A stretch of 64,000 nucleotides of DNA. Source: Clostridiales bacterium (GTDB lineage Bacteria; Bacillota; Clostridia; Lachnospirales; CAG-274). The first letter of the stretch is position 1, and each line of letters starts with the position of its first letter. The notes beneath the pieces were generated by a model. The model was not told the DNA's origin. It saw nothing but the letters and a program-made list of their open reading frames with translations, and did not search any database. Both the position numbers and the translations under genes were made by a program. The DNA lies in NCBI GenBank assembly GCA_021204175.1, contig JAJPZT010000054.1, forward strand, positions 1-64,000, written 5' to 3'. This document shows, piece by piece, positions 25,057-59,249 of the stretch.

Positions 25057-25080
25057 TCAGGGAGAAGGGAGAAGGCAATT

Positions 25081-29291: not shown

Positions 29292-29307
29292 GAAAGGGGC
29301 TGGCAGT

Positions 29308-31868: not shown

Positions 31869-31880
31869 GGAGGGCAAAGT

Positions 31881-33347: not shown

Positions 33348-33351
33348 TTTT

Positions 33352-37395: not shown

Positions 37396-38459
37396 TTTTC
37401 ACCATCACTTTCATATAAATTAAAAATTGTTTCCGCAAGACTGCAATACTCCTCCGCCAAATATTCAGGCTCGGCAATAACCATTCTGTCTGAAAACTGA
37501 AACAGCCAGCCCCAAAAGGCAGGGCTTATTTGGACAGTTACATTTGCGGTAAACGTATCGTCGTCTGTTTTTGTGATTTTTGTGTTTTCGCCGAATTTAT
37601 CGTGAATTACGCCCATAAGGGATTTGTCAAAGCTTAAGGCTATATTTTCGGAATATCCGTCATACATTTTAAAGGCGTTTTCGGTATAGTTTTGCATTGC
37701 CGAATAGGATAAGACAGCTTCTTCGCTTATGTTTTCCTCTGATATTTCAACAGAGGTCATTTTATCAACCCTGTATGTGCACAGCTCATTGTATTTTGAA
37801 GTGTAGCACACAAGATAATAATTGCCTTCGTTAAACACAAGGGCAATTGGCTCGGCTGTGTAAAGGGCTTTGTTTTTTCTGTAAACCTTTTCGCCCTTTT
37901 CGTCAAGGTCAAAATAGTTGAATGTTATTTTTTTATATTCCCTTACTGCCTTTTCGAGTGCATCTACATTGTAAAATATACTTTCGTTGGAGTGCTTTTT
38001 TGTGTTTGTGTAAAGCAGGCTGTTTTTAAGAAGGTCGGCATAAAAGCTGCCGCCTAAATTTGCTAATTTTTCAGTCATTTCCTCTGTTTTTTTCTTGGTT
38101 ATAAACGAAGACGCCTGAACTGCATCTATGAGAATTTTAAGCTCTGCAAGACTGAAGCTTCTGTCCTCAACATAATAGCATTTGTTGTGTCCCACAGTCC
38201 CCGACATAACCTCATAGCCGAATTCGTTTAAAAGAGCAATGTCATTTGCCAAGGTTCTCCTGTCACAGGAAATCCCCATATTAACAAGCTTTTGACAAAT
38301 TTGGTTTGTGGTCAGAGGATGAGCCTCATTTGTTTCCTGTCTTAAAAGCTCCCACAGCTTAAGCAGCTTTATTTTTTGATAGTTACTCTTTACCATAAAA
38401 CACCTCGTTTTCTCTTGTGAATTTACAATAATTATAGCTTTCATATTTAATTTAGTCAA
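37392..38459 (-). CDS. WYL domain transcriptional regulator
   Basis: 355 aa; N-terminal HTH (LTTNQICQKLVNMGISCDRRTLANDIALL), WYL core; 4-nt overlap with the helicase gene. Confidence 0.88.
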   Translation of the reverse strand: MTKLNMKAIIIVNSQEKTRCFMVKSNYQKIKLLKLWELLRQETNEAHPLTTNQICQKLVNMGISCDRRTLANDIALLNEFGYEVMSGTVGHNKCYYVEDRSFSLAELKILIDAVQASSFITKKKTEEMTEKLANLGGSFYADLLKNSLLYTNTKKHSNESIFYNVDALEKAVREYKKITFNYFDLDEKGEKVYRKNKALYTAEPIALVFNEGNYYLVCYTSKYNELCTYRVDKMTSVEISEENISEEAVLSYSAMQNYTENAFKMYDGYSENIALSFDKSLMGVIHDKFGENTKITKTDDDTFTANVTVQISPAFWGWLFQFSDRMVIAEPEYLAEEYCSLAETIFNLYESDGEN

Positions 38460-40346: not shown

Positions 40347-41021
40347 TCAGGCTGCCGAAAATTCAAAAGAACTGAAATCAAATATATCACCAAGCTTAAA
40401 AGTCATATCTTTGTTGTTATTTACTGTATCCTCAATTAAGCTGATAGTTTCTGTCAGATTTGTTTTGTCTTGTGATAAAACAAACAGCTCGGAAGTATTT
40501 TGTGCATCCCATAGTGCATCATGTATTTTACCTTTAAAGCTGTGTCCTGTAAGTGTAAGGGCTTTTTCCAGCGAAAGAAGCTTTGTTGATTTTATGAGCT
40601 GACAAAACTCTGTCTGAAAATCGCTCCAATTATTAAGCAAATTTGAAATGTTATCGGTGATTTCTATGTTTTTAACCTTTAGCTCTTTCTTAACTTGCGA
40701 AAGATCATGTTCGCTCCAAGCATGTACAATGTAGTCACTGCCGTATTTTGAACACCAAGCAGAAAATTTTTCTATAACGGTTTCAAACTTTTCCGCATTT
40801 GCGACCATAGCTGAGGTAATTCCTGTCAGGTCGGTTATTCTGGGAATTATTTCGCTGCACCACTGGGGTTTTACGAAAACTCTTAATTTTTCTGCAATTC
40901 TTGAATTTTCATCAAGCATTACAGCACCGATTTGAATAATTTCGTTTTTGCAGACCTTTCTTATTTTGCAGAATTCTCTTGAAACAGGGTTCATTTCCGT
41001 ATCTATAAATATATGCATCAT
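40347..41021 (-). CDS. 3'-5' exonuclease, DnaQ/DEDDh family
   Basis: 224 aa; IFIDTEMNPVSREF, EIIQIGAVMLDE, ITDLTGIT, YIVHAWSEHDLSQVKKEL, HDALWDAQNT. Confidence 0.85.
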   Translation of the reverse strand: MMHIFIDTEMNPVSREFCKIRKVCKNEIIQIGAVMLDENSRIAEKLRVFVKPQWCSEIIPRITDLTGITSAMVANAEKFETVIEKFSAWCSKYGSDYIVHAWSEHDLSQVKKELKVKNIEITDNISNLLNNWSDFQTEFCQLIKSTKLLSLEKALTLTGHSFKGKIHDALWDAQNTSELFVLSQDKTNLTETISLIEDTVNNNKDMTFKLGDIFDFSSFEFSAA

Positions 41022-41121: not shown

Positions 41122-41147
41122 AAAACGGCATCTCCGCCGTCTTTAAG
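41120..41147 (-). terminator. Rho-independent terminator downstream of MYG1-family gene
   Basis: Minus strand GACGGCGGAGATGCCGTTTTTTTTT. Confidence 0.65.
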
Positions 41148-41158
41148 GTGTAGCTGTT

Positions 41159-41977
41159 TTATTGTTTTAATGCCTGTTTGCAGGCTTCTATGGCTTCTTC
41201 TTTACTTTTTGCATTTATTAAATAGCCGCTGTTATGACAGAATGTAAGCCCTTCGATGCCGGATATTTTTTTCAGCTCAGAGCTTTCGCCTCTCCATTTT
41301 TCCGGAAAATATTTTTTACACTCTTGAGAGCCTTCTGCCTTTGGAACTGCCTGAGCATTATATCCTCCTCTGTCGGAAGGATAAACAACAAAATAAACCT
41401 TTTCCGGAATTAGGATCTCTTTCCAAGGCATTCCGCCAGACAACACAACAATCCCGTCCTTTTGATTTTTAAGAGCATTATATACTAAGCTTTTTGCTCT
41501 TTTTATACTTTTCATATTTTCTATTTCGTTTTGCAAAATTGTTTTTGCCATTTCCACTGCTTTGAAAAAACATTCGTCGGAGTCTGCGTTGCTGTCCCAG
41601 ACAAGGTTAAACATTGTTATGGCACGGCAAAGCATATTGCTGCCGCCGAAATTGTCTTGAATATCCAAGGGCTGAATAAAAGCTCTGTCAAAAACGGCTG
41701 CGGCAGCTTTTCCCACAAGACCGGTGCCGAATTCCCGCCACAAAAGCCCGAAAGAAGCATAGGGAATACCGTTTTCACGGCATTCCGCCTGCTTACTGTG
41801 GTGGTCATATTTTCCGCCGGGCAAATCAAAGGCTATTCCCTTAAAATCGTCGCTGAGAGAGTTTACACGTATGATTTTTATATCAGGGTATATTATTTTT
41901 AACAGAGCCGCCGAAAAAACATCATCAGCGTGAAATCTGCCTGTATGCGTTGCAGCGATTTTAAATATATTTTCCAT
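41159..41977 (-). CDS. MYG1 family protein (UPF0160, DHH-like)
   Basis: 272 aa; ATHTGRFHADDVFSAALLKI, FDLPGGKYDHHSKQAECRENGIPYASFGLLWREFG, LSGGMPWKE. Confidence 0.9.
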   Translation of the reverse strand: MENIFKIAATHTGRFHADDVFSAALLKIIYPDIKIIRVNSLSDDFKGIAFDLPGGKYDHHSKQAECRENGIPYASFGLLWREFGTGLVGKAAAAVFDRAFIQPLDIQDNFGGSNMLCRAITMFNLVWDSNADSDECFFKAVEMAKTILQNEIENMKSIKRAKSLVYNALKNQKDGIVVLSGGMPWKEILIPEKVYFVVYPSDRGGYNAQAVPKAEGSQECKKYFPEKWRGESSELKKISGIEGLTFCHNSGYLINAKSKEEAIEACKQALKQ

Positions 41978-41979
41978 AG

Positions 41980-44900
41980 TTATTCCTCTTCTAAACCGGC
42001 TACTTCAATTAAAGCCGCTTTTTTATCGCCGTTCAGATACAAAACCAAAGCGTATGCCAAATCACTCATTTTTGACAGATTTTCAGGTTTTTCCAAATTA
42101 AATCTTACCTTTGATGAGGGATGCTCCGTATAAACGTCAAGTCTTTTTATAATTTCCGCCAGTCGGAGAGACTCGCCGCTTCCGATTTTTAATATTTCAA
42201 AACCCTTTGCTTTTTCGGGGTTTCTCAGACGAAGCATAGATAGTATGGCCTCCATATATATTACAAATGATTTTTGCTGCTTACGAAAAAGTTTCTCTGA
42301 ATTCCGGCTTTGTCGGTTGAAGCTTACATCGGGGTCTTCAAACTCCTTAAGTAAATTCGTAAGCTTTTCTGTAATATAATATATTATCTCTTCGGCGAAT
42401 TCAATATGAGAGTCAAAGAAATCATAAATTAAATCCGAATCAAAACAGCACAGCTTGCCCAAAGCTCTTATAAGCTCATACATTTTTATATTATAGTTTT
42501 TGATGTAATCAGACGGGTCATCTGTTATATAATTATTTTTCACATCATTTATGAGATTATTTATGATGTCCTGTTTGTCATTATTTTTTAACATCAGATT
42601 TACAGCGGCCTTTATACGGGGGATTTCATCAAATTTATCATAATATAATGTAAAAAATTTTTGGATATTAGGCCAAGTATATCCGCCTGCCGAAAGAATA
42701 ACCTGAAGGCTGTCTCCCCTGAGATAAGCTAAATCATTGGGCTTGCAGTCTTTATAGAAATCCGAAGGGATATAACGGGGCCTGGTTATTTTCGAAAACT
42801 CGGCAAGATACATATATATATCGGAATTTAAAAACCAGTCTATAAATTCTTTTGCTTCCGGCAGACTGCTGAGAGTAATATTTCTCAGTTTGAAAATAGT
42901 TTGGTTTATGTATTTGCAAATAGTACTTGCGGGAGTATATTTTCCCCAGCTCGGTCTGTAACATACAACATTATTATATATATATTCTGCTGTTTTGGAA
43001 AGACTGTTTTTTGTAATTTCAATTTCCCTTAAGACGTTTTCTTCAGGCTGCAGATTTGTTTCGGGAGGCCAAATATTTATAACATCACTGTTCTCTGCTT
43101 TATTTGTCCATTTTACAGTAAGTTCCCTGAAAGCCTTTTCATTTTTGTCGGCAGGCTTCAATATCAGTTCATAGCTGTTGTCAAAACCGTATTTATAGTT
43201 TACCGTCAGTGAAACCTCTATATCATGATCGAGCGGAAAGCTTTTGTCTGTTATAAGTGCTTCTATCATAAGAGAATTTCTGCTGACATCATTTTTTATA
43301 AGCGGAAAACGAAATTCCTTTTCGCCTGCTTTTAAAAACAGCTTTTCTTTTACTATATGACTGTTGTTGCGGCCCATAACATCAAATTTTACATCCTTGC
43401 CTATTAAATTAAGTCTGTCATATGTTCCGTTTCTTATAACCTCAAGACTTAATTCGGGCAGATATTCTGTCCAAGTAGGCAGGTTATTTCTGAGTCTGTC
43501 AATGTAAACATAGGCTCCGCTGTTTACTTCGGCACTTCTGCTGAAATAAACTATATTATTATTAAGCTTTAAACTGATTTCTCTTTCCGATAAAAAATTA
43601 TTTATACAGTCAGTCAATACATTTATATATCTTGTTTTTGCCATATTGAGTTCACTGCATACTTTCTCAAAAAAGACCTTAAAATCTTCAAGCCATTCAC
43701 TTTTACACTGTTCGGCTGTGTCTCTGTCATACTCAATTCTGTAAACAGCGACTCTTCCGCCTGATATGGTTATATAATTGCAGCTTTTCTTAGTTTCAAA
43801 AAAATTCTTTAAATCATCGGATTCTGACATAGCTTCAATAAGGCTTTCATCATATTCAACAGAGTTTTTATCGAAATACAATTTTATGTATCTTTTCATA
43901 AATGCTTTATCGGTGACTGATATGCCTTCATGATACTGTGGCAAAGGAGGATAGTGACTGCATATAAAATCTTCAATATTTTCGTCATAATCCAACCGAA
44001 GGAGCCCTGCCGAAGCATTATTTCCCGTAAGATCAGCCGAAATAAACAGGCAGCCGTTTGGATTCAGCAGATATTTTTTATTTTTTATTGCCGAATTCGT
44101 TAAAGCGGCCACACTTCTCCATATGGGAAATGTTCTCGGAAAGACAGAATTAACACAAGTTTTAAGGTTTTTTTGCGAAAATTCTTCCAAAGAATCCGGT
44201 ATTTCATAAATAAAATAATCGTCTCCCGCAAGATCTAAGCTTCGGCTAAATTCGTCAAGAGCGCTCTTAAGAGCCTCTGTTTGAAATCCGCTCTTTACGG
44301 CATCGGAGATTTTGATAAGTCTCTCAGCACCGGGATAAAGACTGTAAGGATTTCCCGTGCAGATTTTTTCGCTGCCGTTTTTTACGTAAACTACCGCTGT
44401 ATTGTCATAAAATTTTTCGATTTTTTCATTATTTACATAAGCTGTTCCGCCGCTTGCTATATCAAATGTACAGGTTCCCGTTAAAGATTGGCGGCAGTGC
44501 TTTTTCAGTGTAAAACTGTGACCCGAAAAGGCCTCTGCTTTTGATATGCACAATTTTATAAAGGAGAAAAGACCTTCATTGTCGGCATATATTGATAAAA
44601 AATCTTCTTCGGAATTTGTTATCTTTAAGGGATAACCTCTTTTTTCGGCAAGGTTAGTTTCATAATCGGGAGCAAAAAGCAGTTCGAGATGTTCCTCTTT
44701 AATAATTTTTCTTTCTTTTGCATCTGCAGCCGTCATTTTCATATTTATTTTGCAGCCGTCATTACTCAGTTTGAGTATACAGGGAGAAACTGAGTTCCAG
44801 CCCAAAATATGGATTACCTCCTCTGAAATTTTCTCTGAAAGGTTAACTCTGCTTTCTGCCGTTTTAACTTCATTAAACTGTGTCAAAAGAGCATTAAAAG

Positions 44901-45765
44901 AAATAAAACAGCTTTTTACAAACATTTCATGGGCTTTGTTCCAGCCTTTTGATATATTTTCGTCATATTTACACACTTTAAGGTAGGCTTTCCAAATTAC
45001 AGAATAGTTTTTGTCTGACAGCAGAGCATTGTTAGCTGTGGTATGATGGCGGGAAACGGCCTTATTTATTTCCGATTTCCTTATACTCTTTTTCAGCCTC
45101 AACATTTCATTTATTTGAGGGCTTTCCGACAGTTCATCATAGCCGCACTGCTGTATGCCGTTTGTTATACGGGCGGAAACTCTCTTCATTATAAGATTGT
45201 AAAGCATTAAAGCAGCCTGATTTTCTTTAATATCATAGCTGTATTCGTTTATTAAAGTAAGCATCTTGTTTTTGCCGGAAAGCTTTTCTTTAATTGTTTT
45301 GCCGGGTTGTTTTCCAAGCCAGTCCATTGTTTTCGTTCCCATATTTTTTGCACGGTAGGGCGGCACCATTTTGCTTTTTTTGACTATGCTGTGTTTGGGG
45401 TTGTCTGTTACATACTGAAGCTGTTTGCCGCAGTAGTTAATAAGCTGCATAATATCATCATAGGGCAGAGGTCTTATTTTGTTTTTGCCGTCTCCCAAAA
45501 ATACGGCAATACCGCCGCCGTCCTTTTTTTCGGCGGCTTCATGCCAAAACTCATTTAAAAATAAATTGTTTACGGGGTCTCTTAATGCAGCATGATTTAT
45601 ACAGCTCATAGCGGTTTGAAACATTATCCACCATGCGCCTTCGTGCGAAGGATTTTTTGACGAAGAAAGACTTTCAAGCGTATTTATTTCCGGCAGCCGT
45701 GGAGGGAAGCTTTGTTCCGCCTTAAGCTCATTACACAGCTCATAATTATCATTCATACTTTTCAA
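41980..45765 (-). CDS. DUF2357 / McrC-like large protein (CoCoNuT McrC homolog candidate)
   Basis: 1261 aa; DUF2357-like EYSYDIKENQAALMLYNLIMKRVSARI; directly downstream of the McrB-like AAA gene. Confidence 0.6.
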   Translation of the reverse strand: MKSMNDNYELCNELKAEQSFPPRLPEINTLESLSSSKNPSHEGAWWIMFQTAMSCINHAALRDPVNNLFLNEFWHEAAEKKDGGGIAVFLGDGKNKIRPLPYDDIMQLINYCGKQLQYVTDNPKHSIVKKSKMVPPYRAKNMGTKTMDWLGKQPGKTIKEKLSGKNKMLTLINEYSYDIKENQAALMLYNLIMKRVSARITNGIQQCGYDELSESPQINEMLRLKKSIRKSEINKAVSRHHTTANNALLSDKNYSVIWKAYLKVCKYDENISKGWNKAHEMFVKSCFISFNALLTQFNEVKTAESRVNLSEKISEEVIHILGWNSVSPCILKLSNDGCKINMKMTAADAKERKIIKEEHLELLFAPDYETNLAEKRGYPLKITNSEEDFLSIYADNEGLFSFIKLCISKAEAFSGHSFTLKKHCRQSLTGTCTFDIASGGTAYVNNEKIEKFYDNTAVVYVKNGSEKICTGNPYSLYPGAERLIKISDAVKSGFQTEALKSALDEFSRSLDLAGDDYFIYEIPDSLEEFSQKNLKTCVNSVFPRTFPIWRSVAALTNSAIKNKKYLLNPNGCLFISADLTGNNASAGLLRLDYDENIEDFICSHYPPLPQYHEGISVTDKAFMKRYIKLYFDKNSVEYDESLIEAMSESDDLKNFFETKKSCNYITISGGRVAVYRIEYDRDTAEQCKSEWLEDFKVFFEKVCSELNMAKTRYINVLTDCINNFLSEREISLKLNNNIVYFSRSAEVNSGAYVYIDRLRNNLPTWTEYLPELSLEVIRNGTYDRLNLIGKDVKFDVMGRNNSHIVKEKLFLKAGEKEFRFPLIKNDVSRNSLMIEALITDKSFPLDHDIEVSLTVNYKYGFDNSYELILKPADKNEKAFRELTVKWTNKAENSDVINIWPPETNLQPEENVLREIEITKNSLSKTAEYIYNNVVCYRPSWGKYTPASTICKYINQTIFKLRNITLSSLPEAKEFIDWFLNSDIYMYLAEFSKITRPRYIPSDFYKDCKPNDLAYLRGDSLQVILSAGGYTWPNIQKFFTLYYDKFDEIPRIKAAVNLMLKNNDKQDIINNLINDVKNNYITDDPSDYIKNYNIKMYELIRALGKLCCFDSDLIYDFFDSHIEFAEEIIYYITEKLTNLLKEFEDPDVSFNRQSRNSEKLFRKQQKSFVIYMEAILSMLRLRNPEKAKGFEILKIGSGESLRLAEIIKRLDVYTEHPSSKVRFNLEKPENLSKMSDLAYALVLYLNGDKKAALIEVAGLEEE

Positions 45766-45801: not shown

Positions 45802-48435
45802 TCAGTCTTTACTGTTATACTCAGCAGTATCATTATATTCGCTGTCATACCCGGCAGCATCCTCATATTCATTGAGATATTCGGCACTGTTCCACATAAA
45901 CGTATCGTATGTATTTTTAACGGCATTGTCAAAGTCGGCTTCTAAACCGGGAGCCAGTGCTTCATTTTCACCTTTAAAGAGAATGTCACTTATTATATTT
46001 AAACATTTTCTGCCGTTTTCACTGTCAGCTTCTATACCCCTGAGTTTGGGCATAACCTTGTGAACGAGAGCCTCTTCAAAGCTCTCACGAAGACGGCGCT
46101 CACGTTCTTTTTCACTGCCGCCGTTAAAAGCTTTTATAACAAAAGGATGGTTTGCCATATAGTTTTCGACAGACTGCCATACTCTGTGACCTAATGCTTT
46201 TCCCACATAACTCATGGCTTCATTTATTTTTTCAAGTCCCAGCTTGTATTTTTCAAGGCCTTTTTCAAAATCTGCATTGTTTACTGCCGTGTTTTTCAGC
46301 CATTCTTGCCAAAGCTCTTTTTTAAGCATATATGAGTCAGGTTCATTTTCGGTGGATGTACGTCTTATAAATTTTTTCGGTCTTGGGAAACTTATTAAAT
46401 TTCCTCTGTCAAGAACCTTGTCCGAAAGAGATTTTGTTGTTTCGTCTTCATTCATTGTTCCTACCCAGAGTATATTTTCGGAAAGCTCTAAGGGATACTT
46501 GTCCATTCCGGCACCCATATCTATTTCAACATTTACTCCTTCATTTGTGTTTCTTCTTCTTTCGAGCTTGCTGAGCATATCGCTGAAATAAAGCTCAACA
46601 TGGGCAAGATTCATTTCATCCAAAAGTATGAGAAACATTGAGTCGGAAAGATTCGACTCTTGGTTTTCGGCATCATCATTTTCATTAAACTGAACCATTG
46701 CTCTGAGAAGCGTTGTAGCATTAAATCTGTTGTCAACGGAGTTAAAATATCCGAATAAAGACTGGGGACTGTCCCAATCGGGCTGAACTGCCATAGAAAG
46801 AAAGTATAAGCCTCCGAATCTGCTGTAATACTCCGGAAGAAGAGACTTGCCTGTTCCGCTGACACCTGCCAAAACCGTAAGAGGCGACCAGTCGGCTGTT
46901 TTTAAAGCAGTGTGGAATGAATAAAGCAGTCTCTTGTTAAACTTTATTCCCGAATTGCTGCACTTTTTCCAAATTCCGTTAAGCCACTCAATCTCATCTT
47001 TGAAAGTAAGGTCGAATTCTCTTTTTTTATGAAAAGGCTTTTTAATGGCATCAAGCCTTGCGGAAATTTCTTTCGGCTGTTCATACAGACTTTTAAATCT
47101 GTTTACTTCATCGCTGTATCTTTCAATTTGCACTTTTTTTATATCTATCAACCGATTCAGATCTTTAATCTGATCCTGCGCTTCGGCAAGCCTGCGGGTG
47201 TTTAAAAGCCATTTATTTTCCTGAACTCTTAAATCCGCAAGCTCTGCTGTTACATTATTATACTCTTCCGTAAGACTGTCATAATCTTCAGCTTTGGCCT
47301 TGGCCTCTATATATTGTTCATTTGTGGGAAGACTTGAAATTTTATCCTTTAAATTTCGGATATCTTCTTTATATAGGTCAATATCCTTTAAAAGCTCTTC
47401 CGTTGTTTTTCCGTTGGCTTCTCTTTCTGTCTGTACATAGCTGCTGAGTCTGTTATTTGCAGTGTTGAGCTTTTTATTAAGGTTTTCAATAATTTTATCT
47501 TTGTTTTTCGACTCATTTTTGACGGCCTCGGTTGCCCTTTGAATGTCTCTGTCCCTGCTTGAATTTTGTTCGTTTATTGTTTCCTCAAAAAATTTCCGCT
47601 CGGCACAGATATTTTCTCTTTCATGTTCAAGCTCCTTAATTTTTTGCTCCAATTCAATCCTTTCTGTTCTGTTTTCCTCAGAAAGCTTTTTAATTTCCTT
47701 TTTTTCAGCTTCAAGTAAAGCTCTTTCATTATCCATTTTATCCTTATGCTGTTTTATCATTGCCGCTATATTGCCGTCGGCTTTTATTTTTTCTGCTTTA
47801 TAATAATCGTCGGCTTCTTTTACAACGGCTTTGATTTTATTTGTTTTGCATTGTTTCAGTTCCTTATCAATCTTGTCTCTGGCTTTACTCTTGGCTTTTT
47901 CAAGATCAGCTATATCTTTTTCAAGGCTTTCTTTGCACTCTTTAAGAGCACTGAGGGCTTTTTTGTTCTGTTCATAAAAACCGTTTTCGGCATTTGTTTC
48001 ACGCTTTATTATTTCCCTCTCCCGGCTTATAAGATCGTTGTTTTGGCTGTCAAGCTGTTTTTGATAATTGTCTAAAGAGATTTTTATATTGTCTGCATCT
48101 GCTGCTTTTTGATTTACAGCCTTTTCTTTATCCGCCAAAGTATTTTCTCTGTCTGTTACAACATTTTCTCTGTCTGTTACATCCTGTTCTCTTTTCGCCA
48201 AAGCCATCTCCTTTTCTTCGGCTTTTTCGCTTCTGAGCAAAATTTCCTCTTGGGTTAAAAAAAGCTTGAGCTCTTCGTTATTCTTAAATTTTTCCTCAAT
48301 ACGCTGCAGAACATCCTCGTCTGCATCAATTTTTTGCGGTGCTCTGTTTCTCAAACTATTCGGAACAGGTTTCCTTTCGGGAATGAGCGGACCTCTTGAA
48401 CCATTATGATTGTTTCTCTTATTAGGTTTTGCCAT
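45802..48435 (-). CDS. McrB-like AAA+ NTPase with long N-terminal coiled coil
   Basis: 877 aa; heptad-rich first ~480 aa, Walker A VLAGVSGTGKSLLPEYYS, FLILLDEMNLAHVELYFSDMLSKLE, VGTMNEDETT. Confidence 0.85.
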   Translation of the reverse strand: MAKPNKRNNHNGSRGPLIPERKPVPNSLRNRAPQKIDADEDVLQRIEEKFKNNEELKLFLTQEEILLRSEKAEEKEMALAKREQDVTDRENVVTDRENTLADKEKAVNQKAADADNIKISLDNYQKQLDSQNNDLISREREIIKRETNAENGFYEQNKKALSALKECKESLEKDIADLEKAKSKARDKIDKELKQCKTNKIKAVVKEADDYYKAEKIKADGNIAAMIKQHKDKMDNERALLEAEKKEIKKLSEENRTERIELEQKIKELEHERENICAERKFFEETINEQNSSRDRDIQRATEAVKNESKNKDKIIENLNKKLNTANNRLSSYVQTEREANGKTTEELLKDIDLYKEDIRNLKDKISSLPTNEQYIEAKAKAEDYDSLTEEYNNVTAELADLRVQENKWLLNTRRLAEAQDQIKDLNRLIDIKKVQIERYSDEVNRFKSLYEQPKEISARLDAIKKPFHKKREFDLTFKDEIEWLNGIWKKCSNSGIKFNKRLLYSFHTALKTADWSPLTVLAGVSGTGKSLLPEYYSRFGGLYFLSMAVQPDWDSPQSLFGYFNSVDNRFNATTLLRAMVQFNENDDAENQESNLSDSMFLILLDEMNLAHVELYFSDMLSKLERRRNTNEGVNVEIDMGAGMDKYPLELSENILWVGTMNEDETTKSLSDKVLDRGNLISFPRPKKFIRRTSTENEPDSYMLKKELWQEWLKNTAVNNADFEKGLEKYKLGLEKINEAMSYVGKALGHRVWQSVENYMANHPFVIKAFNGGSEKERERRLRESFEEALVHKVMPKLRGIEADSENGRKCLNIISDILFKGENEALAPGLEADFDNAVKNTYDTFMWNSAEYLNEYEDAAGYDSEYNDTAEYNSKD
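48141..48192 (-). repeat. In-frame short tandem repeat in coiled coil (VTDRENV/VTDRENT)
   Basis: TTTTCTCTGTCTGTTACA repeated twice on the plus strand. Confidence 0.7.
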
Positions 48436-48475: not shown

Positions 48476-49507
48476 TTAAAGCTTTTTTTCAGCCATAAGG
48501 CATATAAGCCCTTTTATGACTGCTTCGGCATTGTTTTTAAGATAGTCCAATTTTTTGCTGTTATAATCGATATATCCGTTGTGTGCTCTCAAAACGGAAG
48601 TGCTGTTTATTACATTTATAAGCTCCGGAACAGCTGCTGCGGTTTCCGGCAGGAGAGAATCCTCACGGTTTTTCTCCGAAAAATACCAACAGTAAAATAA
48701 TGTGTTCAGAGTCCCTTTATTATAATTTACAAAGGTGTCACTGAGCTTTCTCAAATCATAATAAGGTAATTTACTCACATTAAAACCGTCTTTCTGCATC
48801 ATCAAAAGATAGTTTTGGGCAGCTTCCTTATCATTATAGCTTTTTACCGAAGAAGCTGCTTCCGCAGTAAGTCTTTTGCTGCATAAATGTTTAAAGAGTG
48901 CTTCTAAGACTGCCGATACCCTTAAAGGATAACAGTTTCCCTCAGCTAAAATTTCTTTTTCCAGTTCCGCCAGCTTCTTTACCGCTGTTTTGTATCTTGA
49001 AGCATCCGGCATATATTTTTGGGTTACGAAGCTTTCCGCATTCTTTAAACGCTTAATTTCATTTAAGTTTATAATTTCTCCGCTTTCAGTGTCAAAACGT
49101 CCTTCATCTTTAATATTAAAGCTTATATTATCCAAAAGAATATGTGCCATATACATATTTTGGTAATGAAGTCCCTTTACGCTTTCAAAATTATACTCTA
49201 TTTCATTGCCGTGTACCGCATCATTTCTTAAGGCTTCAAGCTTGCTGAGAAGTGTGATAATATTGGGCATCTTCCGGGCAAGTCTGAAAAAAGGATGTTC
49301 GTTATATGAAAATGATGCAAGCATACAAGCGGCAAACAGGGCATTCAGCTCACCTGAATTTTCGGCATTATTTATACTTCCTTTTTTTACTGCAAAAAAT
49401 TTCTTATTAATCCCCTCGCTGTTCTCAAAACCATATCTGAGAGATGCCGAACAAAGCTTTTCGGAATTGTCGGAAGGGGAGGCTGTCAGTATGTCTGTAT
49501 TATACAC
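48476..49507 (-). CDS. HEPN-domain-like protein (probable RNase); likely begins upstream in another frame
   Basis: 343 aa; LRNDAVHG gives an Rx4H HEPN motif at ~49211-49228. The frame is open upstream to the 3' end of the neighbouring gene with no usable start. Confidence 0.65.
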   Translation of the reverse strand: MYNTDILTASPSDNSEKLCSASLRYGFENSEGINKKFFAVKKGSINNAENSGELNALFAACMLASFSYNEHPFFRLARKMPNIITLLSKLEALRNDAVHGNEIEYNFESVKGLHYQNMYMAHILLDNISFNIKDEGRFDTESGEIINLNEIKRLKNAESFVTQKYMPDASRYKTAVKKLAELEKEILAEGNCYPLRVSAVLEALFKHLCSKRLTAEAASSVKSYNDKEAAQNYLLMMQKDGFNVSKLPYYDLRKLSDTFVNYNKGTLNTLFYCWYFSEKNREDSLLPETAAAVPELINVINSTSVLRAHNGYIDYNSKKLDYLKNNAEAVIKGLICLMAEKKL

Positions 49508-49620
49508 GCTGTATTTTTTCAGTACCTCCGCAAGAATTGCCGCTGCCAGATTATAGCTGTCCGTAACAAAATCGTTTATATCATTTTGTATGCTGTCCCA
49601 GTTAGCGGCTGCATTGTTTT

Positions 49621-50676
49621 TTATTTTGCCTTGAATTTGATTATACCTGTGTTCATTTTTTTCAACAAATCAAAAACAAAGGGATATCTTGTTATATTTT
49701 CGGAAAGCCTTTTTATAATTTTATTTCCGAAAGCGTGATAAGCATTTTTGGTTTGTTCGCTTTGCTTTTCGGTCAAAGCGTAGACCTGTTTATAAAGACC
49801 GTTTATGACCTTGCTTAAAGTTTCGTTTTCCGCTTTTTTCGATGCCTTTAAAACATCCTCTGTAATTTGGGGAGAAAGACCTGTTCCAAATGGATAGCAA
49901 AGCTGTAAGCGGCTTCTGTTTATTAAATCTTCTGTGGGTAAAAACATATATGCAGCGGTATAAACATATCTTTTTTCACCCAAAATACAAACCTTTTCAA
50001 TATTCGGCGGTAATGACATACTGTTTTCTCTGTCATCTGTTTCATCGTGAATTAAACGGCGGCTTCTTTTTTTATGTTTTTGACATATTTTTAAAACATC
50101 TGTTTCAGTCAGCTTTATATAGTTTTCTTCATTATCCGTATGAACAATAAAACCGGTTTCGACTTGGGGAGAAGCTGTCGATTCATCTGTATAAAACCGA
50201 ATCCAGCTGCGGTTTCTCCGGTCAGTTGAAACAATATTCAGTTCACTGTCGGCAACAAAGGCATCCGCAAAGCAATTTGAAACATAATTGAAAAAAACCC
50301 AGCCTATTTTAATATCATAGTCAGTGCCGTTATATTTTAAGACCTGTTCACCCTCCCTTGTAATTAAACGCCGTTTTGTAATAAGCCCTCTTTCTTCAAG
50401 CTCATTTACTATAAATTCTACAAGGCTTAAATTTAACATAAGCATATCCGCCAGCTGTTCGTCCGATTTAGCCCCGCCTGCAAGAAGCTTAAGTACGGCT
50501 TCACGGAATATATTAAGCTCACTGTCCTTTGGATATGGCACTGACACCTTATATGCACACATAGGTAAAAGCAGCCATCTTTTCTCATATTTGCCCTGTA
50601 TGTATGTTTTGGGATGAGACGGATTTTGATAAATAACTTCGGTTCTTTCATTAAAAAAGTATTTTCCCATAGTCAC
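49621..50676 (-). CDS. Winged-HTH-containing protein of unknown function, N-terminal part of a possible fusion with the HEPN protein
   Basis: 351 aa; KSDEQLADMLMLNLSLVEFIVNELEERGLITKRRLITREG wHTH-like segment; ends at an A7 run. Confidence 0.6.
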   Translation of the reverse strand: MTMGKYFFNERTEVIYQNPSHPKTYIQGKYEKRWLLLPMCAYKVSVPYPKDSELNIFREAVLKLLAGGAKSDEQLADMLMLNLSLVEFIVNELEERGLITKRRLITREGEQVLKYNGTDYDIKIGWVFFNYVSNCFADAFVADSELNIVSTDRRNRSWIRFYTDESTASPQVETGFIVHTDNEENYIKLTETDVLKICQKHKKRSRRLIHDETDDRENSMSLPPNIEKVCILGEKRYVYTAAYMFLPTEDLINRSRLQLCYPFGTGLSPQITEDVLKASKKAENETLSKVINGLYKQVYALTEKQSEQTKNAYHAFGNKIIKRLSENITRYPFVFDLLKKMNTGIIKFKAK

Positions 50677-51273
50677 TCTCCTTACACAGCTTATAATATT
50701 CAGTCAAGGCAGGTATTGCTCTTTCTGCAAGGTTTCCCTTAAGCATGCCGCTGTCGCCTACACAGATCAAAGCTTTTTTCTGTCGGCTCATAGCAACGCA
50801 AAGTCTGTTTTCATACATTAAAAATCCGTATTTTCTCTGCATCAGTTTATTGATGTCGGTTTTTCCGCCTTCTGCTGAAGAATTTGCGTCTTTGGGAAGA
50901 ACATAATTATTTGAGCGAACCATTGAAAGATATACAATGTCAAACTCCATACCCTGAAATGCATCAACCGTACCTATTTTAATAAAATCTCGGCTTTTGT
51001 TTTCTTCGGACAGATAATTTCTGCTTAAAACATAGTTTCCGCTTTCATCTTTTGTAAATATTCCGACTTTCGCCAATGCTTTATATATTTCATTTACCTG
51101 CTCTCTGTAAAAGGTTATTATTCCGTAGTTATAAGTTCTGCCGATACTGCTGTCAAGCATTTTTTTAATATGGGCTGCAATTCTTTCGGCTTCTGCCGGG
51201 CGGCTTTTACTTTTTGAACTTATCTCTTTTCCTGCCTCAGGAGGAACATCATACCATATGCAGGCCTTATTTT
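50651..51273 (-). CDS. UPF1-like SF1 helicase, C-terminal fragment (frameshifted)
   Basis: Frame PGIENKACIWYDVPPEAGKEISSKSKSRPAEAERIAAHIKKMLDSSIG...IGTVDAFQGMEFDIVYLSMVRSN...RLCVAMSRQKKALICVGD; motifs V and VI. Confidence 0.8.
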
Positions 51274-53340
51274 CTATTCCCGGGAGAGACTGAGAAAAAC
51301 TTCCGGATTTTCGATTCCGTTTTCAACCTTTTCGCTTTGACTGTATTTTTCATAGAAATTGTCATTTACAAATTTTCCCAAAACAGGATGCATTCTGAAC
51401 TGTTTATTCAGAGTAATGGTTCTTTTTATGTTGTCGGTCTTTTCCAAAAGCTTAAGTTTGTTGAAAAGGTGTTCGAACATACTTTCCTTTATTTTCTGTT
51501 CAACAACAGTTTTCATATCTCCGGCATTTTCTTTTTCAAGCTCATTTAAAATTTCATTATCAACCATATGGGGCAGCTGTCTGTGGTCGCCTACCAATAT
51601 AATTCTGTCTCTTGCCACAGAAAGGGGGATAAACAAATCAAGGGGGTTGCTTCTGGCAGCTTCATCTATCAAAACATTGTCATAAACAATATTTCCGCCC
51701 TTTGCAGTACTTAATTCATGGCCCATAACCTGTTGGTTTGTAGCCCCGTTTACCGTAGTGTAATCAAGTATAGCTTTTTTTACACCGATCGGGTTTTCTC
51801 TGAGATTTTGCATATACTGTAAAATTGCCAGATCTTCGCCGTCTTTGCTTGCTGCAAGCTGTGACATTAAGTGTTCCGAAATATCGGTTAAAAGCTTTAT
51901 AATTTCATCTGTCTGTGCATTTTTTGTGAATAGGCTGCTTCTGGGCATTATTTTAACCAAAAGCTCCCTTCTTATTTTTTTCAAAAGGTCAAAATCATAT
52001 TTTCGTGTTTTGTCCATTTCTTCAAGACTTTTGACAGCATTATCAAATTTATGGTTGTTTTGATATTTAAGGATAAAAATCGCCGATTTTACAGTCCCGA
52101 TACCGTTATCCGAAAAAGCAGCTTCATTTGTCGGTATTCTTCTTACGGCATGGTTTATTAGGGAGGAAACCGGAGAAGGCGTACCGCTTAAAAGCTGAAG
52201 CTTATATATGCAGCTGTAAAGCCTTTCGCTTAACTCTGTTGAAAGCTTATCGTCAAGCATATCTTCTACGGATTTCAAGATATTCAGAGAGTTGCGGACG
52301 GTTTTTGACGAACAAAGAAAATCGATATAAAGCTTATTATAGTCTTCAAGATATTTCATTCCCGATATATAGGCATATTTTTCATTTAAGTTTGCCAGTT
52401 TATCGTTAATCCAATTTTGAACTGTATTGTCAATATCTATATTATCATCCTCTTTATCCGTATGCCTTTTGCCGAATTTTATTGCGGGCAGACCTAATAT
52501 TTCAATCCTATCCAAAACATTTTGAAGAGCATCATGCTGAAAAGCCGAAACCAGATTTCTGCCGAACATTCCATCGTTATAGTCGGCTTCTTCGTTCAGT
52601 CTTTTTAAAATGGCAGTAATAACAGTTGTTTTGCCTGTTCCCGGAGGGCCTTGAATTAAAGCTATATCCGGGGTGTTAAGAGCCATTTCTATAGCGTCTG
52701 TCTGGTTTCCCGTAGGAGGGCGGAAATTACCGTTTTTATCAGTGAAAATTTCTTTTTCCACAGTTTCACTTAAGGCGGGAATTCGAGTTTTTCTAGGTGT
52801 TGATACACTTTTGCCCTCAAGAATAGCCGCAAGATTGGGCATTGGGCAATTGAGGGTTTCTATATTGCTGCGGGCGGTGTTTCTTCGCTTAAAACGCTTT
52901 TCATCACCATGAACCGACATAAAAATATAACCGGAACTAATGCCGTCTTTATTCAGGTTTTGTGCTTTTTCCGTATTGTAGTTCAAATTAAGCGAAACAC
53001 TGCGCCTGTTTAGGTTTATTTCCACCAATTCTGCATTTAATATGAATTTTTTGTTTTTCTCCAAAAAATTATTAAAGACCTCGGAGTCAACATGCTGTTC
53101 AAAAGGGTTTATAGTTGTTAAAGATAAAATGTCTCCTCTTTTAAACTCTCTTTCAAAAAGTTCAAGCCTTTTTTGATTTCCGTCTGTAATATCAAATCTG
53201 CAGGATGTACCTTCTACTTCAAAGGAACTATACCGCAGAGCCCCTAAATCTATAGCCTTATCTGTTATAAATTTATGCTCCAGTTCATCATACCTCTTCC
53301 ATATATTAATGTATGAATCCGATGTATTTTCTTCTCCCAA
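51274..53340 (-). CDS. UPF1-like SF1 helicase, central part (frameshifted)
   Basis: 688 aa; IQGPPGTGKTTVITAIL, DNVLIDEAARSNPLDLFIPLS, LVGDHRQLPHM, LNKQFRMHPVLGKFVN. Confidence 0.9.
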   Translation of the reverse strand: MGEENTSDSYINIWKRYDELEHKFITDKAIDLGALRYSSFEVEGTSCRFDITDGNQKRLELFEREFKRGDILSLTTINPFEQHVDSEVFNNFLEKNKKFILNAELVEINLNRRSVSLNLNYNTEKAQNLNKDGISSGYIFMSVHGDEKRFKRRNTARSNIETLNCPMPNLAAILEGKSVSTPRKTRIPALSETVEKEIFTDKNGNFRPPTGNQTDAIEMALNTPDIALIQGPPGTGKTTVITAILKRLNEEADYNDGMFGRNLVSAFQHDALQNVLDRIEILGLPAIKFGKRHTDKEDDNIDIDNTVQNWINDKLANLNEKYAYISGMKYLEDYNKLYIDFLCSSKTVRNSLNILKSVEDMLDDKLSTELSERLYSCIYKLQLLSGTPSPVSSLINHAVRRIPTNEAAFSDNGIGTVKSAIFILKYQNNHKFDNAVKSLEEMDKTRKYDFDLLKKIRRELLVKIMPRSSLFTKNAQTDEIIKLLTDISEHLMSQLAASKDGEDLAILQYMQNLRENPIGVKKAILDYTTVNGATNQQVMGHELSTAKGGNIVYDNVLIDEAARSNPLDLFIPLSVARDRIILVGDHRQLPHMVDNEILNELEKENAGDMKTVVEQKIKESMFEHLFNKLKLLEKTDNIKRTITLNKQFRMHPVLGKFVNDNFYEKYSQSEKVENGIENPEVFLSLSRE

Positions 53341-53426
53341 AATAAGTTTGACTTCTTCCCGAGCAGCCTCTTTTTCGTCAGTAAAATTCAGTCCTTTTAC
53401 AAGTATGAATTTGTAATCCTCTTTTT

Positions 53427-54035
53427 TTATTGATTTTGTGATTTTTTCGGCTGAATAATATTCCTTGTCAAACTCATTTGTTTTTTACATATGTGTATAT
53501 AACAGTTACTTCCGGCTATGACAAAGCTGTCAAATTCTTTTTTCCTGTCAGATCTCATATGAAGCCCCACAACGGCGAAGCTGACGTCTCCTGATTTATA
53601 AAGACCGATTTCTCTCAAATCTTCAATAGGATTTCCGAAATTTTTTATTTGAACCTGAGCCTTAAAGCTTTTGGTTAAAAAATCATCTGTTATATTTACG
53701 GAATAATTCAAAATTTTTCTTTCCGGAAACGTCTTTATTAAAACCTGTATTGTTTTGTCCTTATGGATGATAACCTCCGTCAGCTTCGGCAAGCCGCTGT
53801 TTATAATATTATTTATAACTCTGCCGTTTATTTTGTCTGCCGGTTCTGTCAAAATAAACTGTTCTTCATCAAGCTCAGAGGCTACAATAAAAGAGTTTTT
53901 TATTTCGGCAATTCTTACAGCGGTATTTGCCGGAAAATGAATTTTTTTATTGTCCTTTTTATGCTGATAGGTTTCAATTTCTTTAAGTTCTGCTATATTT
54001 TCCGAACAACAGTGTCTGACCTCGTGTAAATTCAT
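53427..54035 (-). CDS. N-terminal domain of the same helicase (frameshifted)
   Basis: 202 aa; after a -1 shift at A6 (53481-53486) the frame reads TNEFDKEYYSAEKITKSIKKEDYKFILVKGLNFTDEKEAAREEVKLILGEENTSD into the central ORF. Confidence 0.7.
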   Translation of the reverse strand: MNLHEVRHCCSENIAELKEIETYQHKKDNKKIHFPANTAVRIAEIKNSFIVASELDEEQFILTEPADKINGRVINNIINSGLPKLTEVIIHKDKTIQVLIKTFPERKILNYSVNITDDFLTKSFKAQVQIKNFGNPIEDLREIGLYKSGDVSFAVVGLHMRSDRKKEFDSFVIAGSNCYIHICKKQMSLTRNIIQPKKSQNQ

Positions 54036-54052: not shown

Positions 54053-55588
54053 TTATATAATATTAAATCTAATGTGACGGGTCGTAAAACTTTTATATAT
54101 ATCCTCTTCATCCTCCTCGTCAGGCTTAAACAAAGGCATGGAAAGAGTAAGATTATTTATATTATTATCAAACTTTTTAATATCCTCCGGGCCTAATTCA
54201 CCGTAGGAGGTTTTGAGACCCGTCAGTGTTATAACTTTATCGGAAAGGTTTCTTATGGAAAATGTACCCTTCTCAATTTTTATTTCTATTGTCTTTTCGG
54301 TTTTTTCTGAAGGAAGAATTTCAGAGGTGTCGTAATTATAAAGATAATATACTCCGTCTGCCGTATCAAAAAACTTTCGGCAAACATTAACCTCACCGAG
54401 GTTTTTAAAACTTTCTGCCGAAATCTTTTCAACAGAGTAATTTCCGCTGTTATTAAATTCTTCAGTAAGCTTGTTCTCGGCTTCTATTATTTCTTCAATA
54501 GGATATACATCTTTTATGCGGACAAGCAAAAGTTTTTCTCTTTTTAGACCGTGATTGCAGAAAGGACAGTCTGAGTCGACTTTCCTGACAAAAAAAGTAT
54601 TGCCGCAATAGCTGCATTTTGCCGTAAGCCCGGAGGCCAGTTTTAAAGCCTTATACCATTCATATATTTTGGGTCTGCTTTTTGGGTTGTGCCTGCCCTC
54701 ATAACTGAATGTTTTTCTAAAAAGCTCATATAAGTCTTTAGTAAAAACCATCTCATGCGGAAAACCCGTATAACACCTGTTTGAATCGTCCTCCGGGTCA
54801 AATATCCAGGGAAGCTCGCCTTTTTCCGCAAGATCGGCATTGTCAGTTTCATCATCGTCCCAGCCGGCTTCGCAGTCTGTTATCATTTCTCCGCAAAAAG
54901 GTGAATTAAGGGTTAAAATTTCATGGGCTAAAACTGCAAAGGAATAAACATCACTTTCAAGTGTGTTTATTTCTCCCTTAACAACTTCAGGAGCGCCATA
55001 ACCGGGAGTAAATATTATTTTATTTACGTCATATCTGTATCTCATATTGTCTGCGTCAATAAGCCACACTTCGGCAAAGTTTAAATCCTTAGAGACGAAA
55101 ATATTTTCCGGAGACAAATCGGCATATACGGCTGAACGATAATACAGCTTTGTATAAATTTCCGCTAAATTTGTCAGCAGTTCAAGTCTGTGACGCAAAC
55201 CTCCTGTTTCGCAGTAAAATTTTGCGGGGTTTTCATGGGGGTTTTTAAAATCTTTTATATATTGTTTTATGGGAATCATTTCAGTCAAAAATCTCATTAC
55301 ATAGCCGCAGAACGGCTTTTCAAGCATATATTCCGGCTTGGCAATATGTATATGATCGGGGATGCCGAGTATTCTGACTTCGTCGATAATTTCATTTTTA
55401 TATTTTTCGTACGCTTTTTCGTTTACAATAGGTTCTCCCGTAACAGGATTGACTCTCATTTTTACAATTATATTTGGGTCTTTGGTTTTCCAAACAGCCC
55501 CCTGACCGCCGCTGCCGATTTCCGCTTCAAGATAATGTTTATTTCCGATTTCATCAACCACAAAATTTAAAATCTTATTTTCTTCCAT
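54053..55588 (-). CDS. Protein kinase-like (TerY-P triad kinase) with zinc ribbon
   Basis: 511 aa; IGSGGQGAVWKTKD, AVYADLSPENIFVSKD, WLIDADNMRY, zinc ribbon CSYCGNTFFVRKVDSDCPFC. Confidence 0.88.
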   Translation of the reverse strand: MEENKILNFVVDEIGNKHYLEAEIGSGGQGAVWKTKDPNIIVKMRVNPVTGEPIVNEKAYEKYKNEIIDEVRILGIPDHIHIAKPEYMLEKPFCGYVMRFLTEMIPIKQYIKDFKNPHENPAKFYCETGGLRHRLELLTNLAEIYTKLYYRSAVYADLSPENIFVSKDLNFAEVWLIDADNMRYRYDVNKIIFTPGYGAPEVVKGEINTLESDVYSFAVLAHEILTLNSPFCGEMITDCEAGWDDDETDNADLAEKGELPWIFDPEDDSNRCYTGFPHEMVFTKDLYELFRKTFSYEGRHNPKSRPKIYEWYKALKLASGLTAKCSYCGNTFFVRKVDSDCPFCNHGLKREKLLLVRIKDVYPIEEIIEAENKLTEEFNNSGNYSVEKISAESFKNLGEVNVCRKFFDTADGVYYLYNYDTSEILPSEKTEKTIEIKIEKGTFSIRNLSDKVITLTGLKTSYGELGPEDIKKFDNNINNLTLSMPLFKPDEEDEEDIYKSFTTRHIRFNII

Positions 55589-55595
55589 ATTTCAC

Positions 55596-56306
55596 CTATA
55601 TCCTTTCATAGCTGGCCAGAGTCCTGTCATCACCTGCGTTAACGGTGTTCCAGCTGCTTAAAATATTACGAAGAAACCGTTTTGTTTCCGATAAATCCGC
55701 TTTGCTGCGAAGCTCTTCCCATATATATTTTACAAAGTCTTCTTTGGTTTCATCTATAAGGGTTTCCGAAACCCCGTCAGTCATTAAGCAGACGGCAACG
55801 CTTTTTTCTCCTGTTATATATTCTTTGAGCTTCCAGTCTGAAAAGCTTGAAACAGAACTCATTCCGACTGTGATATTTGAAAACTCTTCTTCTTTGCCGG
55901 CAATAAGCTCTGTTTTATCGTCTATGCGTATAAATATATTTCCGTCACCGAGTTGACCTGCCCACAGCCTGCCCGTATTGCTGTGAAAAGCAAAAAGGCA
56001 GGTTGTTCCGCATTCATTTCTGCGGAAAGGGTAGATTTCGATATTCCATATAGAATGAATTAAGGGGATTAAAAGGCGAAAATCCTTTTCTTTATAAGAG
56101 TTCCAAAGTTTTACGGCTTTAATGACAGCCCGACAAGCGGCTCTCGAACCTATATGGGCATTTTTGTGAGAGCCGTGACCGTCAGCTACTGCTAAGACTG
56201 TACCGAATTTGAATTCTTTAACGATACAATAGTCTTGGTTTTTGATGCCTTTTTGCTTATGGCTGCTTCCCCTGACAGAACCGTATCCTAAAATTGCGTT
56301 TTTCAT
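55596..56306 (-). CDS. PP2C-family protein phosphatase (TerY-P triad)
   Basis: MKNAILGYGSVRGSSHKQKGIKNQDYC...VLAVADGHGSHKNAHIGSRAA...MTDGVSETL; the supplied ORF starts slightly upstream at 56327. Confidence 0.9.
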   Translation of the reverse strand: MKNAILGYGSVRGSSHKQKGIKNQDYCIVKEFKFGTVLAVADGHGSHKNAHIGSRAACRAVIKAVKLWNSYKEKDFRLLIPLIHSIWNIEIYPFRRNECGTTCLFAFHSNTGRLWAGQLGDGNIFIRIDDKTELIAGKEEEFSNITVGMSSVSSFSDWKLKEYITGEKSVAVCLMTDGVSETLIDETKEDFVKYIWEELRSKADLSETKRFLRNILSSWNTVNAGDDRTLASYERI

Positions 56307-56310
56307 AAGA

Positions 56311-57015
56311 TTATCCAAAGTCTTCAAAGTTCATATTCAATATATCCTCATTAAACAAATCTTCAGGCACAACGTTAGGGTTTCGGCTTTGACTTCGCTG
56401 AATTGTGCATGAAGATATAAATCTGAAAAATTTATGTATATCACCGGTATCATCTACATAACAGACGCTTTTTTCGGGGTTATCCAAAAATCTTTTCATC
56501 ATATCTGCGTCGGCATCTTCGCCTATAGCCAGACTCCAACGGTCACATTTTGAACTTCTGCCCTCCTTTGTAAATCTTTCAAGCTGTTTTTCAAATTCAC
56601 GGTTATTAGGATCTTCCGGATCATAGGGTTCTCCGTCTGAAACAAGAACAACTACAGGGCGATAAGCATTTTTGGGAACTTTAGTCTTGTCTTCTATCAT
56701 ACTGCCGGCCAAATCAAAGGCTTTGCCCATACAAGTTGCACCGTAAGCAGTTAAATCAGCAAAGCTTATATTTCTTGCCGGCATTAAATCCGTGTGGAGT
56801 TTTACGTCAGAGCCGAAAGTAATAATTGAAACACAAATTTCCGCTTGTAAAATCTGTTCATCAGTAAAGCTTTGAATCATTTCCTTTACAGAGGTATTTA
56901 ATTCGTCAATTTTATTGTCATACGACATGGAACCGCTTACGTCAAGCAGCAGTATAACCGGCAGCATTCTTGCTTTCGCTGCTACAAAGTTTTTAAATTC
57001 ATTGTTTTCTTTCAT
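56311..57015 (-). CDS. vWA domain protein (TerY-like)
   Basis: 234 aa; MIDAS VILLLDVSGSMSYDNKIDELN, YGATCMGKAFDLA, VVVLVSDGEPYDP. Confidence 0.92.
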   Translation of the reverse strand: MKENNEFKNFVAAKARMLPVILLLDVSGSMSYDNKIDELNTSVKEMIQSFTDEQILQAEICVSIITFGSDVKLHTDLMPARNISFADLTAYGATCMGKAFDLAGSMIEDKTKVPKNAYRPVVVLVSDGEPYDPEDPNNREFEKQLERFTKEGRSSKCDRWSLAIGEDADADMMKRFLDNPEKSVCYVDDTGDIHKFFRFISSCTIQRSQSRNPNVVPEDLFNEDILNMNFEDFG

Positions 57016-57695: not shown

Positions 57696-59249
57696 ATGGC
57701 AAAGAAAAATACAAAACCATTTCAGAACTATGTGCGCCATTATGAAAAAATCAGAAACATATTAAGGCATATGTTTATGTATGGGGATTATTCCAATAAA
57801 GACTTTACAAAAAACGGTTTGGCAAAAAGCAACCGTTCAGTTTACTATTCAATAAACAGAATTCAAAATTATTTGGGAAACGAATATTTTAAAACTCATG
57901 AGCTGCCAAACAGAAAAAAGGACAAAAAGGGTTACAGACTTATGTATGATCCCTTTATTTGTCCTATAAACTATCTTGCCGATACATATGTAAACTGCTC
58001 CTATGTAATTGAAGATTTTATATTTTATTTTACATTAATGCAGGCTTTTATATATGAAGAAGAATATTATGAAAGTGAAATATATGAATATGATGATTTT
58101 AAAAATTATACAGATGACATATGTGAATTGATTATTTCGCCTGAAGGAGAAGATAAAGGTTTTGAGTTTGGCAGCATTTGCGACTGTTTTTGCAATATTT
58201 ACACATTAAACAAAAAATTTTTGTATGAACAGGGGCAAGCCAAATTTTCCGATTATAAAACCGAAAGTGAATTAACCGAAAATTCCTTTAAAAGCAGTAA
58301 AATAAAAGATAGACTGGACGAACTGTCAGGTCTCGGAATTTTAACACATAGAAGGAGAAAAACAAAATATTCGGTAAATATGAAAGATGTATATTCTCTT
58401 GCGCCGGATATATTTAAATGTTTGGAATTTAAAGAACTTGAAGATTTGCAGCGAATGGTCCTGTTTTTCTATAATTTTTCATTTCTTTCCGCTGCAGGCT
58501 ATCATCTTTCACAAACATTAAATTTATATGTAAAGAGTGAATTTCCGGCTTATTGCAAAGAAACCGGTTCATTCTTTGCAATAAACGAAAACCCTGTTTT
58601 TTTCTACAAGAATAATAGGCTTCAGACTGTAATAGACAATAATGTTTTCTGGCAAATTTTATATGCAATTCATAAAATGAAACCCATATCCTTTATATAT
58701 AACAGAAAACACACAGAAGGCGGAGAGGAAAAAAAGGTTTATCCCGTAAAGATTATAACAGATTTACAGTATGACAGACAATACCTCTATGCTTATGATT
58801 ATCAGGCGGAAAAATTCAACCCTTACAGAATAGACTCTGTCAGCAATGTGGATATTTTAGAAATAAATGAACCATTTGTTTTTATAAACAATACAACTGA
58901 AGAAGCGGATATTCGGAAAGAAATTGAAGAAATATACAAGAAGAACTCTGCAAATACATGGAATGTTTCATTTGCGGGTGAGCCTCATCGGGTTTTACTT
59001 CACTTTACTTTTCCTCAAAAAGAATGTGACAAGCTTTACAATAGGCTTATTTCCACAGGCAGATTCGGAAATATTAAAAAAACTTCCGATTGTACTTTTG
59101 ACTATGATATAGAAGTTAAAGATGAAAATGCTATGGTTCCGTGGATAAGAAGCTGGGGCAGTATGGTTATGGTTGATAAAGCAACTAACTCAAATCTGTT
59201 TGACAGAATATACAATGACAGTATGGAGGCATTAAAACAATATGAATAA
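57696..59249 (+). CDS. WYL domain transcriptional regulator
   Basis: 517 aa; N-terminal HTH-like region, WYL-like QILYAIHKMKPISFIYNRKH...VYPVKIITDLQYDRQYLYAYDYQAEKFNPYRIDSVSNVDI. Confidence 0.82.
   Translation: MAKKNTKPFQNYVRHYEKIRNILRHMFMYGDYSNKDFTKNGLAKSNRSVYYSINRIQNYLGNEYFKTHELPNRKKDKKGYRLMYDPFICPINYLADTYVNCSYVIEDFIFYFTLMQAFIYEEEYYESEIYEYDDFKNYTDDICELIISPEGEDKGFEFGSICDCFCNIYTLNKKFLYEQGQAKFSDYKTESELTENSFKSSKIKDRLDELSGLGILTHRRRKTKYSVNMKDVYSLAPDIFKCLEFKELEDLQRMVLFFYNFSFLSAAGYHLSQTLNLYVKSEFPAYCKETGSFFAINENPVFFYKNNRLQTVIDNNVFWQILYAIHKMKPISFIYNRKHTEGGEEKKVYPVKIITDLQYDRQYLYAYDYQAEKFNPYRIDSVSNVDILEINEPFVFINNTTEEADIRKEIEEIYKKNSANTWNVSFAGEPHRVLLHFTFPQKECDKLYNRLISTGRFGNIKKTSDCTFDYDIEVKDENAMVPWIRSWGSMVMVDKATNSNLFDRIYNDSMEALKQYE

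Follow-up and report, generated by a model that had tools for sequence, protein, structure and literature searches.

A gene of the MYG1 family is almost certainly a dedicated component of one sublineage of the CoCoNuT defence systems. This follows from its fixed position behind cnuC, from the clustering of its bearers as one clade in both the CnuB and the MYG1 tree, and from purifying selection. The gene was first encountered in a stretch of 64,000 nucleotides from a Clostridiales bacterium (contig JAJPZT010000054.1), hereafter the window.

A type III-A-like CoCoNuT ending in MYG1

The operon of the window starts at position 57015 and runs along the minus strand in the order VWA, PP2C and kinase (together the TerY-P triad), UPF1-like helicase, wHTH/HEPN protein, NxD AAA+ GTPase, DUF2357 protein and MYG1. 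Its features, together with the divergent regulator, are as follows.

57696..59249, plus strand: divergent WYL-domain regulator, conserved in front of each of the five related operons with MYG1
56311..57015, minus strand: VWA protein of the TerY-P triad, with which the operon begins
55596..56327, minus strand: TerY-P PP2C phosphatase
54053..55588, minus strand: TerY-P serine/threonine kinase
50651..54035, minus strand: cnuH, UPF1-like SF1 helicase, with two frameshifts near 53480 and 51296
53427-54035, 51274-53340 and 50651-51160, minus strand: the open reading frames of cnuH
48476..50676, minus strand: cnuE, with one frameshift near 49650
49621-50676, minus strand: wHTH part of cnuE
48476-49507, minus strand: HEPN part of cnuE, with RNDAVH and RAH motifs
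45802..48435, minus strand: cnuB, encoding an McrB-like AAA+ GTPase; its long N-terminal region is charged and presumably a coiled coil
within CnuB: Walker A motif GVSGTGKS; NxD motif N662-D664 (MNEDE)
41980..45765, minus strand: cnuC (CnuCD type), 1261 aa, DUF2357 at the N-terminus, residues 271-930 predicted Hsp70-like
41159..41977, minus strand: MYG1, PF03690 match, 272 aa, ATG start, last gene of the operon
within MYG1: DHH motif, residues 58-60
41124..41138, minus strand: terminator-like stem-loop with T-run after MYG1

The layout of type III-A CoCoNuTs was defined by Bell et al. 2024, eLife (PMC11090510), and the window operon is a type III-A-like CoCoNuT to which MYG1 has been added. 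Both share the TerY-P triad, which is a common but non-core CoCoNuT feature (type III-A, PMC11090510) and is complete and in order in the window (VWA, PP2C, Pkinase), a UPF1-like CnuH, a CnuB with NxD motif, and BREX nearby. Likewise shared are a CnuE combining a wHTH with RxxxxH and RxH HEPN motifs, and a CnuC in which DUF2357 is fused to an Hsp70-like part while a McrC nuclease is unrecognised. Unlike the type III-A layout, the window operon carries MYG1 as fixed last gene and the divergent WYL regulator. In the main text of the defining paper, neither MYG1 nor UPF0160, DHH or exonuclease is mentioned (PMC11090510).

The individual proteins agree with this assignment. CnuB, whose residues ~40-460 are charged and repetitive and presumably form a coiled coil, groups with the CnuB proteins of CoCoNuTs in the tree and carries NxD rather than NxxD (GTMNEDE in the window, GTMNQDE in locus L052). 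CnuH, which is spread over three reading frames in the window, matches AAA_11 and AAA_12. In CnuE, the predicted HEPN motifs read RNDAVH and RAH in the window, and each of the five relatives has RN(D/E)SxH and RGH; due to this conservation the partner effector of MYG1 would belong to an RNase family. The profile search assigned DUF2357 to the window CnuC with 23.2 bits (E 4.6e-5), just below the cut-off of 23.3, and to CnuC of locus L073 with 24.2 bits. The region behind this domain (residues 271-930), modelled by AlphaFold with a pLDDT of 81, matches DnaK/BiP in Foldseek (E ~1e-13, probability 1.0); at the sequence level, CnuC had no match among solved structures. Thus, of the designation 'DUF2357/McrC-like' that the initial annotation gave to this gene, the first half can be retained, whereas in place of a recognised McrC nuclease the protein carries an Hsp70-like domain.

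The two genes at the end of the operon lie on the same strand with a gap of 2 bp, exactly as first annotated (41980-45765 and 41159-41977). This spacing is compatible with the proposed translational coupling, although it falls short of proof. A terminator had also been placed behind MYG1; the hairpin with its T-run is present at 41138-41124, but the pattern alone is at chance level, with one occurrence observed against a shuffle mean of 1.3. Beyond the hairpin, a DEDDh (RNase T-like) exonuclease gene (40347-41021) has its own leader and appears to be a separate unit from the MYG1 operon; it was not found beside the related MYG1-bearing operons.

Comparison with CnuH and CnuE of Catenibacillus revealed three frameshifts in the window, two of them in cnuH and one in cnuE, that the initial annotation had left unmentioned; the reading frames of cnuB, cnuC, MYG1 and the TerY-P triad are open. 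These breaks reflect either decay of the effector half or errors of the draft assembly, and because of them the window copy of the system may be inactive. The case for MYG1 stands on the intact relatives.

Further defence genes adjoin the CoCoNuT. Positions 22708-34488 encode BrxP, BrxC, PglZ and BrxL (BREX), followed by a DndA/SspA-like cysteine desulfurase, which suggests a phosphorothioation-linked BREX. Between BREX and the CoCoNuT (34699-38459), a TPR-DEAD-helicase-HNH protein and a WYL regulator form a probable further restriction unit.

MYG1 and its relatives

The 272-residue protein matches PF03690 with 154 bits (E 9.6e-45, cut-off 22.1) over profile positions 3-318. With the family profile it aligns over its full length (E 8e-24) with the chains of PDB entry 24ah, which is titled only 'MYG1 exonuclease' and which we take to be human MYG1. 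It thus shares with the eukaryotic MYG1 proteins of yeast and human the PF03690 family, the DHH motif and the full-length alignment with the human chains, but differs in being some 50 residues shorter across the alignment, in its bacterial origin and in its location within a defence operon. Foldseek returned no significant match for the MYG1 model; the best entries, which include RecJ and the human replisome, all have E > 1e-3, and the Foldseek matches listed do not include the human MYG1 chains that the sequence search had detected.

MYG1 has been characterised as a 3'-5' RNA exonuclease, the activity of which is abolished by replacement of the DHH residues (PMC11167044), and the yeast protein limits the L-A RNA virus (PMC10089162). 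By analogy, MYG1 of the CoCoNuTs can be regarded as a putative 3'-5' exoribonuclease; DHH and FH(A/T)DD are invariant in all six CoCoNuT-borne proteins. Our literature searches found no assay of any bacterial MYG1 or of this CoCoNuT, no experimental study of CoCoNuTs, and no study on bacterial defence that joins MYG1 and phage.

The five operon-borne relatives are 56-60% identical to the window MYG1, as opposed to at most 50% for stand-alone MYG1s. The latter, as they occur in the same order, belong to the same family, with 41-50% identity to the window protein in the closest group, but are found in varied ordinary contexts and form a separate clade. Nine positions, numbered as in the window MYG1 (14, 52, 107, 112, 118, 175, 218, 220 and 252), are invariant in the CoCoNuT MYG1s, and at each of them the 11 stand-alone MYG1s compared have other residues; some of the nine flank the conserved LD-x-QDN loop.

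One MYG1 of the order has a defence context of another kind. At L031:4072-10758, the Wadjet genes jetA, jetB and jetC are directly followed by a gene for a 410-aa MYG1 at the expected position of JetD. MYG1 as a recurrent Wadjet partner is unsupported, since related JetC proteins occur in seven other genomes of the order and only two of these gave any MYG1 match, in both cases on other contigs; the arrangement appears to stand alone within the order.

Recurrence of the cnuC-MYG1 adjacency

Uniqueness to the window genome, which the initial annotation would have counted against its proposal, does not apply: the adjacency of MYG1 to a DUF2357 gene was found at five more loci, which belong to Lachnospiraceae and Acetobacterium. 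A CnuB scan of genome contigs yielded 48 loci, and at five of these (L054, L055, L056, L069 and L073) MYG1 directly follows cnuC. The hosts are Lachnospiraceae bacterium MC2017, two Acetatifactor-like metagenome-assembled genomes, Acetobacterium fimetarium and Catenibacillus scindens. All five share the divergent WYL gene followed by VWA-PP2C-STK-CnuH-CnuE-CnuB-CnuC-MYG1, and across the six junctions, window included, MYG1 starts between -4 and +4 bp relative to the end of cnuC. MYG1 occurs in only about 8% of the genomes of the window's order. That it recurs at five other loci with strand and position unchanged and hardly any spacing is more than chance would produce.

Downstream of MYG1 the genes differ between loci. 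A family of 465-473 aa without Pfam match follows MYG1 in three MYG1-bearing operons (L073:16961-18361, L054:17574-18971 and L069:17597-18994) and directly follows cnuC in one operon lacking MYG1 (L079:15330-16751); it is likely another CoCoNuT accessory gene.

A locus counted as assessable if its CnuC was full-length and followed by 1.2 kb or more of sequence; MYG1 is present in five of the 30 such loci and absent from 25. MYG1 is therefore dispensable for CoCoNuT core function, and its interpretation as a general CoCoNuT gene was rejected. The two other CnuC loci of the order both lack MYG1, one of them being counted among the 25. Conversely, no CoCoNuT homologue lies near 16 MYG1 genes of the order (mostly ~10 kb per side).

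Wider searches extended the group no further. Neither a search with the CnuC profile through 391 genomes of the class nor a scan of viral contigs with CnuC revealed another member, and a search of the relatives of genome G323 gave one match only, the coordinates of which again fit Catenibacillus. A scan of genome contigs with the MYG1 protein alone, for which the search patterns were too narrow, found nothing, and plasmid and phage records contained more distant MYG1s only.

Phylogeny and selection

In the CnuB tree, a fast-search tree of a small sample, the six MYG1-bearing systems (window plus five) form one clade with an SH-aLRT support of 98. The nearest other CnuB proteins, from Ectobacillus (L057) and Anaeroplasma (L058), belong to systems without MYG1. 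The same six form one clade in the MYG1 tree (support 100/98, with a bootstrap of 100), where the window, the Acetatifactor pair, and Catenibacillus together with MC2017 and Acetobacterium branch in an order compatible with the CnuB tree, which leaves the relative order of the window and the Acetatifactor pair open. Within the sample, the MYG1-bearing CoCoNuTs have a single origin. Since the two Acetatifactor loci are near-copies, the number of independent lineages is about four or five.

MYG1-family genes also occur on viral contigs of IMG/VR (L104-L120), many of which are 57-197 kb long; in the MYG1 tree these sequences fall outside the CoCoNuT clade.

Between L054 and L073, dN/dS amounts to 0.096 for MYG1, 0.072 for cnuB and 0.058 for cnuC; between L055 and L056, the MYG1 value of 0.12 is similar to those of the neighbour genes. 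MYG1 is thus under purifying selection about as strong as that on cnuB and cnuC. In the genomes of the window, L054, L055 and L069, the operon copy is the only MYG1, and the Catenibacillus genome contains one extra match, which is weak and partial, and no other full-length MYG1. With recurrence at five loci, agreeing trees and purifying selection, the initial proposal of MYG1 as part of this defence operon is supported for the sublineage.

Proposed role of MYG1

The best explanation, in which we place moderate confidence, is that MYG1 is an additional nuclease, dedicated to the system and maintained by vertical descent, which degrades RNA first cut by the HEPN nuclease. Infection would be sensed by the TerY-P kinase/phosphatase switch and by the Hsp70-like CnuC with the CnuB GTPase, upon which CnuH, as helicase, and CnuE, as HEPN nuclease, would cut RNA. 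MYG1, presumably translated directly after CnuC, would then act as a metal-dependent 3'-5' exoribonuclease on the cut RNA, which could be neither repaired nor translated. The placement of MYG1 after HEPN is drawn from the biochemistry of the family and from gene context, and for the specific step, degradation of HEPN products by MYG1, we consider the chances even. HEPN products usually end in a 2',3'-cyclic phosphate, at which many 3'-5' exonucleases cannot start, and these ends are the chief difficulty for MYG1 as a degrader.

Alternatively, MYG1 may be an off-switch or safety valve, that is, a DHH phosphoesterase which allows the host to recover by destroying activating short RNAs or cyclic (oligo)nucleotides, or by clearing HEPN-generated nanoRNAs. 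Among the members of the DHH superfamily are nanoRNase and cyclic-dinucleotide phosphodiesterases, and several residues near the LD-x-QDN loop differ between the CoCoNuT MYG1s and other MYG1s. Control by cyclic nucleotides or RNA ends has moreover been proposed for CoCoNuTs (PMC11090510). However, neither a CARF sensor nor a signal synthase was recognised in the window operon, and the characterised eukaryotic MYG1s are RNA exonucleases (PMC10089162, PMC11167044). We consider such a role unlikely, though still worth weighing.

It is more doubtful still that MYG1 is a general RNA-turnover gene, parked once behind an ancestral cnuC and carried along as a passenger without defence role. One insertion followed by common descent would equally yield congruent trees, and MYG1 of related genomes sits in ordinary, varied contexts. 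Yet its position, strand and near-zero spacing have been kept although CnuC has diverged down to 34-46% identity, whereas the genes beyond MYG1 vary. Furthermore, the other examined members of the window's genus lack both MYG1 and this CnuC, so that MYG1 is not needed by them. Action on DNA within the complex, or a non-catalytic structural role, is very improbable: human MYG1 does have exonuclease-independent effects (PMC11167044) and the best, insignificant fold matches include RecJ DNA exonucleases, but their E-values lie above 1e-3, and none of the six proteins deviates at the catalytic DHH or at the metal-site residues.

Implications

MYG1 as the fixed last gene of a CoCoNuT sublineage is an addition to the described type III-A layout. 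RNA targeting by CoCoNuTs has so far been a prediction (PMC11090510), and an extra putative exoribonuclease conserved in one of their lineages provides independent support for RNA as the substrate. The compact eight-gene operon is intact in Catenibacillus scindens DSM 106146, which makes the role of MYG1 testable. A defence role in CoCoNuTs would also connect the antiviral function lately described for yeast MYG1 with bacterial immunity. The findings suggest that this enzyme family takes part in antiviral defence not only in yeast but also in bacteria. Tentatively, and at slightly less than even chances, the MYG1 exonuclease may be a catalytic effector of bacterial RNA-targeting immunity and, as such, a member of an antiviral RNase family common to prokaryotes and eukaryotes.
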